Below are positions 46,444 to 48,816 of a DNA stretch of 61,050 nucleotides, piece after piece. The stretch's first letter is position 1; every line of letters starts with the position of its first letter. Source of the DNA: Bacteroidota bacterium (lineage in GTDB: Bacteria > Bacteroidota > Ignavibacteria > Ignavibacteriales > Ignavibacteriaceae). The position numbers and the translations under genes were made by a program. The notes beneath the pieces were generated by a model. That model saw only the letters and a list, made by a program, of their open reading frames with translations, ran no database searches and was not told the origin of the DNA. Where the stretch lies: NCBI GenBank assembly GCA_021831685.1, contig JAKBMG010000212.1:1-61050 (forward strand), read 5' to 3'.

Positions 46444-47586
46444 TTATTTAATGACCTTAAACTCAATTCTTCTGTTTAGAGCCCTGCCTTCAGCAGTCTT
46501 ATTTGAAACAATCGGATTTTCTTCACCCAATCCGGCAGTAGTCAATCTACTTGCATCAACACCTTTAGCAACCAAGAATTGCTTCACCGCTTCGGCTCTT
46601 TTAAGCGACAACTTTTTATTGTATTTATCGGAACCGATATTGTCGGTATATCCTTGAATTTCAACATTTACACCCGGGTTTTGTAGCAATGTTTCTGCAG
46701 CATTATAAAGAATCGGCATTGATTCGGGTTTGAGTGTAGCTTTATTAAAATCAAAATTAACTCCAATCAGCACCCAATTAGTTGGAGCAGGAGCGTTGCT
46801 TACAACAGCAGGAGTATTCTTCTTAACTATACCTTCGATCCTATTGTAATCAACTTCCGTAGGTTGGGTTTGATATTTTTTAACTATATCTTCTATTTTT
46901 CCATAATCAACAACGCCTACGCCATCATACATATCAGACAAGTGAGATTGAGGTCCTTTACCAAAATAATAAACAGCACCTATGTCAAATGTCATATATG
47001 AATCCAAATTACCGCCTAATAGCCCATTCCCAATTGTTCCATAAACTCCGTCAAATGAGTTTGTGGAAGGTGTATGATAATCAATTTCGGTTTTTATCTT
47101 CCAATCCGGGCTAAGCCCCCACTCAGCTCCAAACAAAAGATTCATTTGATAATCGATATGATTTTTATTTAGATTTGCTATACGTGAGCCTGTAATTGAA
47201 TTCGAGAATCCACCAATTCCTACTCCGAGATAAGGTGAAATATACTCGGCGGGCACAAGATAATAAATCAAATCAAAATTAGCTTCAAGAACATTATTCT
47301 TAATATTATCTCTTGTGTCTTTGAGAAAAATATAATTTCCCTCTAATCTTAAGCCAATATGTTCGGTAAAGTTTCTTTGGAGGGACAGGTATCCTCCAAA
47401 TTGAGTACCCAATTTATCATTAGAGTATGAGTTAAAACTAATATATCTTGGATAAGTAAAGCCAAATCCGAAGTTCCAACTATTTTGAGCTAACCAATCA
47501 TATTTTGAAGTCGTTTGCTGAGCAAATAAATTGCCGGCAAGTAGGATAGAGAAAGAAAACAACATCACAAGAAAATACTTTTTCAT
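46444..47586 (-). CDS. OmpA-family outer-membrane protein
   Basis: A 380-residue protein with a signal peptide (1-22, ending LFAQ), an N-terminal eight-stranded barrel-like domain (about 25-205: NSWNFGFGFTYPRYISFNSY; HIGLRLEGNYIFL; YISPYLGVGIGGF; YMTFDIGAVYYFG) and a C-terminal OmpA peptidoglycan-binding domain (about 270-380: VLIGVNFDFNKATLKPESMP; VEIQGYTDNIGSDKYNKKLS; RAEAVKQFLVAKGVDASRLT; ALNRRIEFKVI). The conserved Asp and Arg that bind diaminopimelate (TDNIGS..., LNRRIEF) are present. It anchors the outer membrane to the cell wall. GGAGGG lies about 8 nt before the ATG. It is a single gene with its own terminator at 46392-46422. Confidence 0.93.
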   Translation of the reverse strand: MKKYFLVMLFSFSILLAGNLFAQQTTSKYDWLAQNSWNFGFGFTYPRYISFNSYSNDKLGTQFGGYLSLQRNFTEHIGLRLEGNYIFLKDTRDNIKNNVLEANFDLIYYLVPAEYISPYLGVGIGGFSNSITGSRIANLNKNHIDYQMNLLFGAEWGLSPDWKIKTEIDYHTPSTNSFDGVYGTIGNGLLGGNLDSYMTFDIGAVYYFGKGPQSHLSDMYDGVGVVDYGKIEDIVKKYQTQPTEVDYNRIEGIVKKNTPAVVSNAPAPTNWVLIGVNFDFNKATLKPESMPILYNAAETLLQNPGVNVEIQGYTDNIGSDKYNKKLSLKRAEAVKQFLVAKGVDASRLTTAGLGEENPIVSNKTAEGRALNRRIEFKVIK

Positions 47587-47782: not shown

Positions 47783-47839
47783 CGGGGTGTAGCGCAGCCC
47801 GGTTAGCGCGTCCCGATTCAATCGGGAAGGTCCCCGGTT
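47783..47839 (+). pseudogene. 5' part of a split tRNA-Pro-like gene with UCA anticodon
   Basis: The first 28 bases (CGGGGTG TA GCGC ... GCGC G) are identical to those of the intact tRNA-Pro at 47923. The anticodon arm then differs: TCCCG ATTCAAT CGGGA, giving anticodon UCA at positions 34-36. Variable loop, 5' T-stem (CCCGG) and the first two T-loop bases follow, then the homology ends abruptly in AT-rich DNA. The missing 3' part is found at 48281-48298, downstream of the GIY-YIG gene. Confidence 0.8.
47808..47839 (+). repeat. 32-bp direct repeat, left copy (att-like)
   Basis: Identical to 48249-48280. It begins GCGTCCCGATTC and ends GGTCCCCGGTT, spanning the end of the D-stem through the first two T-loop bases of the split tRNA. 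The copies are 441 bp apart and bracket the intact tRNA-Pro and GIY-YIG gene. A single cross-over between them would restore a complete 75-nt tRNA-like gene. Confidence 0.88.
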
Positions 47840-47922
47840 TATGGAATTTTAATTTATCTGAAAATTATAAAGTGTTCAGTTTGTTCTTTTTATTTATCAA
47901 TTTTTATTTCAAAATATGTTTT

Positions 47923-47997
47923 CGGGGTGTAGCGCAGCCCGGTTAGCGCGCTTCGTTCGGGACGAAGAGGTCCCCGGTTCGAATCCGGGCACCCCGA
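47923..47997 (+). tRNA. tRNA-Pro (anticodon CGG)
   Basis: A 75-nt cloverleaf: acceptor CGGGGTG/CACCCCG, D-stem GCGC/GCGC with a 10-nt loop, anticodon stem CTTCG/CGAAG with loop TTCGGGA (anticodon CGG at 34-36), variable AGGTC, T-stem CCCGG/CCGGG with loop TTCGAAT, and discriminator A. CCA is not encoded. C1-G72 and A73 are typical proline identity elements. It reads CCG codons. The ATG of the GIY-YIG gene begins two bases after its last base. Confidence 0.96.
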
Positions 47998-47998
47998 C

Positions 47999-48247
47999 AT
48001 GAGCTTTTGTACTTATATTTTATTTAGCCAAGCAGTGAACAAATATTATATTGGCAGCACCAATAACATTCTGCGAAGGTTAGACGAACATAATTCAAGA
48101 CAATCAGCTTCTACCAAAGCTGGTGTTCCATGGAAGCTAGTCTTCATGAAAGAATTTGTTCTTAAATCAGATGCTATTAAACTTGAATATAAACTCAAGA
48201 AAATGAAAAGCAGAAAATATCTTGAGTGGTTCATTAATAACAGTTAA
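47999..48247 (+). CDS. Small GIY-YIG nuclease-superfamily protein
   Basis: An 82-residue single-domain GIY-YIG protein. The degenerate first motif is YIL (6-8), the second YYIGS (16-20), followed by the conserved Arg in RRLDEHN (26-32), VPWKLVFMKEF (43-53), and the metal-binding Glu63 in IKLEYKLKKMKSRKYLEWFI. All catalytic positions of the family are kept, so it could cut DNA. Proteins like this (UvrC-N-like, YhbQ-like) are very abundant in Bacteroidota, and I recall them next to tRNA genes, which I cannot check here. The ATG starts right after tRNA-Pro and the stop (48245-48247) abuts the partial tRNA copy. There is no ribosome site other than the tRNA 3' end, so translation may be weak or depend on tRNA processing. 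Confidence 0.88.
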   Translation: MSFCTYILFSQAVNKYYIGSTNNILRRLDEHNSRQSASTKAGVPWKLVFMKEFVLKSDAIKLEYKLKKMKSRKYLEWFINNS

Positions 48248-48248
48248 T

Positions 48249-48298
48249 GCGTCCCGATTCAATCGGGAAGGTCCCCGGTTCGAATCCGGGCACCCCGA
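48249..48298 (+). pseudogene. 3' part of the split tRNA-Pro-like gene
   Basis: Starts in the D-stem end (GCG), carries the same TCCCG ATTCAAT CGGGA anticodon arm (UCA) as 47783-47839, and continues through a complete T-arm and acceptor 3' strand CACCCCG with discriminator A. The 5' acceptor and D-arm are absent, so it cannot fold as a tRNA. Its first 32 bases are the right copy of the direct repeat. Joined to the left part it would make a full 75-nt cloverleaf. Confidence 0.82.
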
Positions 48299-48318: not shown

Positions 48319-48816
48319 ATGGCTCAAAATCATTCTTTTGATATAGTTTCTGAGATTGACTTGCAAGAAGCTGATAATGCGGTTAACCAAGCGATTAAGG
48401 AAATTCATCAGCGTTATGACTTAAAAGATTCTAACACTGAAATTGAACTTAATAAAAAAGAGAAGCTTATTTCGATTAACACCAAGGATGATTATTCGTT
48501 AAAAGCTAGTATTGATATTCTTCAAACCAGATTTATTAGAAGGGGTATCTCAGTAAAAGCTCTGAAAATTGAGGAGCCGGAGCCAGCAGCAAACGGTAGG
48601 TTAAAATCAGAAATAGCACTACAAAGCGGTATTTCAGGGGACAATTCGAAAATAATTACAAAAATGATTAAAGAATCAAAACTTAAGGTTACCGCGCAAA
48701 TTCAAGATGAAAAAATAAGAGTGCAAGCTACAAAGATAGACGATCTTCAAGCAGTGATAAAATTAATCAAGGATGCTGAATTAAATTTTCCAACTCAATT
48801 TGTCAACTTGAAGTAA
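48319..48816 (+). CDS. yajQ: YajQ-family nucleotide-binding protein
   Basis: A 165-residue UPF0234/YajQ protein. The start MAQNHSFDIVSEIDLQEADN and segments QAIKEIHQRYDLKDSNTEIE, LQTRFIRRGISVKALKI and QAVIKLIKDAELNFPTQFVN are diagnostic, and the length fits the family (about 160). Members bind nucleotides, and some plant-pathogen homologues bind cyclic di-GMP and affect gene expression. The protein is cytoplasmic. It is the only ordinary protein gene on the plus strand, lying 20 bp after the partial tRNA and convergent with ftsZ. No obvious terminator separates it from ftsZ in the 58-bp gap. Confidence 0.95.
   Translation: MAQNHSFDIVSEIDLQEADNAVNQAIKEIHQRYDLKDSNTEIELNKKEKLISINTKDDYSLKASIDILQTRFIRRGISVKALKIEEPEPAANGRLKSEIALQSGISGDNSKIITKMIKESKLKVTAQIQDEKIRVQATKIDDLQAVIKLIKDAELNFPTQFVNLK

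Follow-up and report, generated by a model that had tools for sequence, protein, structure and literature searches.

A tRNA-Pro locus with a stand-alone GIY-YIG gene and hairpin-swapped tRNA copies, a probable member of a homing-type nuclease family in bacterial tRNA genes

The locus lies in a 61,050-nt stretch of a draft contig (JAKBMG010000212.1; hereafter the window) from a Bacteroidota bacterium of the Ignavibacteriaceae. Its upstream flank is an OmpA-type outer membrane gene on the reverse strand (46444..47586, identified from sequence only), and all that follows is ordered along the forward strand. A damaged 5′ copy of tRNA-Pro (47783..47839) consists of the acceptor and D arm, a palindrome, TCCCGATTCAATCGGGA (47811..47827), standing in for the 17-nt anticodon stem-loop, and a sequence cut off in the T loop. 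An AT-rich spacer (47840..47922), which probably contains the promoter of the next gene, leads to an intact tRNA-Pro(CGG) at 47923..47997 (ARAGORN; Rfam 65.7 bits) and an 82-codon GIY-YIG nuclease gene (47999..48247; UPF0213/Slx1-like fold). A damaged 3′ copy (48243..48298) follows, with the end of the D arm, the same palindrome (48252..48268) in place of the anticodon stem-loop, an intact T arm and the 3′ strand of the acceptor, and it runs on without a break into the flank leading to a gene at 48319..48816 that we take to be yajQ. This last gene lies outside the element and, in relatives, marks the tRNA-Pro site by synteny. When the DNA of the genome was searched with the 75-mer, matches fell at the three copies of the locus only, with 47923..47997 the sole intact match of its kind.

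The GIY-YIG reading frame is independent, following the intact tRNA directly and lying in no intron or intein; a group I intron was rejected, as Rfam matches nothing but tRNA in the window. The start codon sits 1 base past the 3′ end of the tRNA (47997-47999), as it does in three relatives (L034, L050, L054), and from this position tRNA 3′ processing could free a nearly leaderless nuclease mRNA. The coordinates given by a first-pass annotation for the exact 32-bp repeat (47808-47839 = 48249-48280), the intact tRNA and the nuclease gene all hold. That annotation had placed the start of the 3′ tRNA half at 48249, past the GIY-YIG stop; its end stands, but the tRNA-derived piece begins at 48243 (GTTAATGCG, with two mismatches against GTTAGCGCG), so that the stop codon of the nuclease gene falls within tRNA-derived sequence.

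In both damaged copies the anticodon stem-loop of the intact tRNA, CTTCGTTCGGGACGAAG, is exchanged for the perfect palindrome, and the swap is exact to the base at the foot of the anticodon stem; none such is expected (100 shuffles). The two copies had been proposed to be halves of one tRNA gene that recombination across the 32-bp repeat could restore. Such a join does remove 441 bp and leave a 75-mer that scores as a tRNA, with anticodon TCA, but the product carries the hairpin and is not the ancestral tRNA-Pro. Since the palindrome loop and its length vary among relatives (16-19 nt and more), the joined 75-mer is not an ancestral tRNA, and we rejected the idea of restorable halves, the palindrome having replaced the anticodon arm in both copies and the join giving a TCA-type tRNA-like form whose loop is not fixed in relatives. 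The ancestral gene is, judging by its conserved synteny with yajQ, the intact copy. The palindromes, which the first-pass annotation had passed over, belong to the system generally.

The 82-aa product matches PF01541 (62.9 bits, Pfam), and the expected catalytic residues Y6, Y17, G19, R27, H31 and E63 are invariant among seven aligned sequences. A confident structure model (pLDDT 90.6) finds its best Foldseek matches in UPF0213 and Slx1, so that domain match, catalytic Tyr/Arg/Glu and fold all place the protein in the GIY-YIG superfamily. It resembles the small UPF0213/COG2827-type proteins (1zg2, 1ywl), which are themselves a small GIY-YIG domain, and Slx1, a branched-DNA nuclease, in being closest to them by sequence and fold; we know of no member of either group that is mobile or tRNA-bound. 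The window protein is the catalytic domain alone: neither Pfam nor the structure model gave a separate DNA-binding domain, a feature of free-standing homing endonucleases of the SegB type. Between-species dN/dS was 0.05-0.29 wherever dS could be estimated, which by these sequence comparisons indicates that proteins of this type are under purifying selection.

Many genomes of the order have yajQ following tRNA-Pro(CGG) in conserved synteny, and this site could be compared in 22 genomes: nine hold the nuclease gene, one (G011) retains what reads as a short, decayed remnant of it, and 12 are empty, with 19 nt from the tRNA end to yajQ in one empty example (G004). Pieces of tRNA accompany every occupied or remnant allele (10/10) and no empty one (0/12; p = 1.5e-6), and the pattern needs at least seven gains or losses on the YajQ tree. 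In one relative (G012) a damaged copy and its spacer are tandemly repeated. A patchy distribution, with some alleles of a conserved gene left empty, is a feature of free-standing homing endonucleases, and the mobile-unit idea of the first-pass annotation, which an absence of empty sites in relatives would have defeated, thus survives this comparison.

Short GIY-YIG genes adjoin tRNAs far more often than expected. Three closed relatives contain 28 short GIY-YIG clusters, of which 17 are at most 111 bp away from a tRNA, against 0.40 expected, and all 17 are on the strand of the tRNA; random placement reached this proximity in 0 of 20,000 trials, and none of six UvrC-size controls falls within 3 kb of a tRNA, ruling out chance proximity. 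The 80 best relatives in 84,980 species include 70 with a tRNA no more than 500 bp away, in 69 cases on the same strand; these come under 14 NCBI phylum names, and in 63 of 69 a tRNA fragment of 14 nt or longer is close by. Aureibaculum flavum A20 and Belliella calami DSM 107340 each carry a unit. Together with the empty sites, this enrichment, whose absence would likewise have told against the mobile-unit idea, supports the earlier proposal of a small tRNA-tied unit that retains a functional tRNA. Adjacency is not common to all GIY-YIG genes: among the best matches in other genomes of the phylum just 4 of 24 stand beside a tRNA, which assigns the habit to this sub-lineage, and a clade of 43 proteins is tRNA-free. 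The genome of the window contains a total of four further short GIY-YIG genes near the cut-off; two of these stand next to tRNA-Met and tRNA-Val, and at each there is a partial tRNA copy that carries a palindrome. Tandem arrays are common in the closed relatives (five copies at Leu, five at Asp, three at Ser and three at Arg).

Nuclease lineages largely follow tRNA isotypes. When 148 proteins from the order are placed in a tree, they group by isotype rather than by genome, with 31 isotype changes against 90.5 on shuffling, and a tree including other phyla has 53 changes against at least 107 in 100 shuffles, with, for example, Ignavibacteria and Chlorobiota proteins pairing on tRNA-Asp; both trees rest on 72 columns and have low support, with most forks unresolved. 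Fidelity is imperfect, as labels for Ser, Met, Val and Ala are spread over the cross-phylum tree, and vertical descent at orthologous tRNA loci may account for part of the grouping. The break in the tRNA copy usually falls at the same base throughout a lineage while the palindromes differ. Anticodon stem-loops are swapped at 28|46 in Pro (eight loci), 25|43 in Lys and 27|45 in Met; other fixed breakpoints are 51|60 in Asp, identical in Ignavibacteria and Chlorobiota, 38|57 in Cys, 22|34 in Ser(GCT) and 22|32 in Asn. Several isotypes have in common a T-loop site, GGTTC|GAATCC, occupied by small hairpins. Isotype grouping and recurrent breakpoints thus give the target-specific lineages expected of free-standing homing endonucleases, albeit imperfectly. 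The separate short GIY-YIG clade without a nearby tRNA occupies 43 rows of the 148-protein tree (L008, L011, L014, L024, L098, L111, L112, L164, L167 and others); dRS3-like palindromes, e.g. ATTCCCGCTTTCGCGGGAATGACA, border several of its genes, which suggests a wider partnership of GIY-YIG genes and palindromes.

These data bear on the explanation that tandem tRNA duplication with decay, or a mis-assembly, produced the arrangement. tRNA genes do duplicate readily and the window is a draft contig, but the same architecture recurs in closed genomes and under 14 phylum names, the breakpoints are precise and recurrent, and the protein is under purifying selection, making an accident or artefact scarcely credible.

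The hairpins were examined in 144 different inserts chosen solely by the tRNA sequence on either side and then tested for stems. A stem of at least six pairs was found in 98 of the 144, compared with 1 of 144 shuffled inserts and 24 of 2,880 random genomic segments, and selection by the tRNA flanks before the stem test rejects the palindromes as a search artefact. The commonest insert arm is TCCCG, and arm positions vary in a paired fashion. Inserts in the T loop often resemble two consecutive small hairpins, as with TCCCAAAGGGA CTCATTCTGAG in L135 (others are L023, L061, L080, L081, L104, L114, L147 and L153). The tRNA pieces have a consistent polarity: 368 are on the strand of the tRNA and seven on the opposite one, same-strand pieces downstream of an intact tRNA are 3′ ends in 125 cases and 5′ ends in two, and those upstream are 5′ ends in 97 and 3′ ends in four. 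This is the polarity expected from insertion within a tRNA with one whole copy restored.

Palindromes and tRNA pieces also occur away from nuclease genes. TCCCGA palindromes are dispersed genome-wide, with ten in the genome of the window against one for the reversed control and up to 115 in another (G036), and they outnumber the reversed control in the majority of the 60 genomes. Genome-wide palindrome figures come from pattern counts and sampled windows; one of these windows is mostly N, and palindrome densities taken from them are approximate. One palindrome of the window's genome, TCCCGATTTTATCGGGA, lies within an apparent 23S rRNA gene (C115:26805-26821; L040, position about 1501). Hairpin-carrying tRNA pieces without a nuclease in cis were found in 12 of 40 control regions (G030, G056) and in 1 of 17 in the genome of the window, so we rejected the idea that they are exclusive to nuclease loci. 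Long hairpin-tRNA tandem arrays that adjoin tRNAs but have no GIY-YIG gene in cis include Leu 77-bp, Val 136-bp and Thr 111-bp units as well as Glu (L218 1-640, L226, L198, L206). In G030 one T-loop insert type is found in several different tRNAs; three further copies lie away from tRNAs (L237, L238, L239; G030:C1:142368, 2443282 and 2933518), and in L238 and L239 the insert is enclosed by a further inverted repeat, with arms CCCTCTCC...GGAGAGGG.

The arrays without an adjacent nuclease imply that a nuclease acting in trans, or other machinery, makes or keeps some of them. In the latter case, a REP-type HUH/RAYT transposase, or replication slippage and template switching at tRNA hairpins, would make the duplications, and the GIY-YIG gene would merely settle among them as safe surroundings or profit from them. 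The dispersed TCCCGA-type palindromes, the sharing of one G030 insert type among different tRNAs and the presence of Y1_Tnp (IS200/RAYT type) genes in all four genomes tested are consistent with such a role. The unit itself has no HUH (Y1) transposase ORF in or beside it, however, and, judged by position, no Y1_Tnp gene listed for the closed genomes adjoins a tRNA array; breakpoint position and isotype track the nuclease lineage, and tRNA pieces at the yajQ site are confined to occupied and remnant alleles. We therefore regard other machinery as an unlikely source of the duplications.

In open-access papers we found nothing that connects bacterial GIY-YIG proteins with REP, dRS3, UPF0213 or tRNA mobility, and SegB alone came close. 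The paper on it (PMC13096335, which cites the 2008 SegB paper) presents SegB of phages T4/T6 as a free-standing GIY-YIG homing endonuclease that cuts within tRNA genes, recognises the motif RAWTSGAAC, whose complement GTTCSAWTY is T-loop sequence, amplifies tRNA-segB segments in tandem and shows no isotype preference in its co-localisation. The first-pass statement that short tRNA-bound GIY-YIG forms are not described as mobile units therefore stands for bacterial chromosomes, as far as open papers go, but not for phages. Like SegB, as it is portrayed there, the present units have a stand-alone GIY-YIG gene adjoining tRNA genes, and the complement of the SegB motif matches the T-loop insertion site of some of them. 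Unlike SegB, so far as that text describes it, they are chromosomal, largely follow one lineage per tRNA isotype and carry palindrome-replaced tRNA copies; and the 82-aa protein, unlike SegB or I-TevI, has no separate DNA-binding domain. The window protein had no match in the phage and plasmid collections searched, and carriage by either was rejected on this ground.

Other known systems share single traits. REP/REPIN sequences with their RAYT likewise combine short dispersed palindromes, a single-gene nuclease, arrays and lineage-specific hairpins, and the TCCCGA palindromes supply the many genomic copies typical of them, but here the nuclease is GIY-YIG, not HUH, and the palindromes recur at set places within the tRNA copies. 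Where group I introns occupy tRNA genes, they target the anticodon region with the involvement of a homing nuclease (PMC3984707); the anticodon region is a presumed target here too, but the functional tRNA is duplicated and uninterrupted. Integrative elements at tRNA sites also carry a tRNA piece and leave the gene whole after insertion, whereas the present unit has no integrase, measures about 0.3-0.5 kb and has a hairpin at one junction.

We consider it likely that the locus is a member of a widespread family of free-standing, homing-type GIY-YIG genes in tRNA genes, whose nuclease we infer to be a DNA-cutting enzyme, and the arrangement found across many bacterial phyla has the look of a selfish genetic element of a kind not yet described. 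By analogy, the units may work like a homing endonuclease of the SegB kind combined with REP-like hairpins. We write homing-type rather than homing endonuclease because most of the homing features considered are present, a separate DNA-binding domain is absent and cutting is presumed.

Each nuclease lineage is largely dedicated to one tRNA isotype and, where there are copies enough to tell, to one internal position. If the intact tRNA is written X-r-Y, with r the replaced segment, insertion would leave one junction as X-r-Y, a complete tRNA, and the other as a partial copy with a hairpin h for r, giving upstream units of the form X-h-y-spacer and downstream units of the form Y-spacer-nuclease-x-h. 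The nuclease would cut the DNA of the tRNA gene in or close to r, perhaps in the form of an extruded hairpin, which the Slx1-like fold makes conceivable, and recombination repair would then copy the cassette or duplicate it in tandem. The hairpin scar may render a copy uncuttable, or may be the recognition structure of the nuclease. One intact tRNA would be kept because loss of an essential tRNA would kill the host. An awkward point is that in the occupied allele the damaged copies lack r while the intact tRNA retains it, so that the donor, which keeps the presumed target, would itself be open to cutting.

The damaged copies might instead act as RNA, as transcribed decoys or regulators, with the GIY-YIG protein binding or cutting the cognate tRNA or the decoys, for example in defence against tRNA-cleaving toxins. 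Upstream units often have an AT-rich promoter-like stretch ahead of the tRNA 5′ part, nuclease lineages are isotype-specific, and phage tRNAs can, according to the SegB paper, serve as decoys or supplements (PMC13096335). The downstream copies, however, have no tRNA 5′ acceptor strand, and the palindrome loops vary freely, with no consistent anticodon. The characterised GIY-YIG enzymes are, to our knowledge, cutters of DNA, and the nearest folds are UPF0213 and the branched-DNA nuclease Slx1. We judge an RNA-level role to be very improbable.

Beyond the homing-type reading, we entertain, tentatively and with considerable doubt, a new class of mobile element. Its hairpin-marked units would be driven by a stand-alone Slx1-like GIY-YIG nuclease that puts a REP-like hairpin where the tRNA had a stem-loop, and non-autonomous arrays would be mobilised in trans. 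Such an element would be a GIY-YIG counterpart of RAYT/REP, found under no fewer than 14 phylum names, and the tRNA-free clade would serve ordinary dispersed palindromes.

If the homing-type reading is true, the tRNA genes of many bacterial phyla, including candidate-phyla lineages, would house selfish nucleases of one family, often restricted to a single tRNA and a single site in it, of which we found no description in open-access papers. It would make sense of one class of small 'GIY-YIG' genes, of tRNA pieces with interruptions and tRNA fragments in tandem, and perhaps of part of the palindromes scattered in genomes. It would also provide many natural target sites for studying the specificity of an 80-residue nuclease, and a chromosomal parallel to phage SegB.
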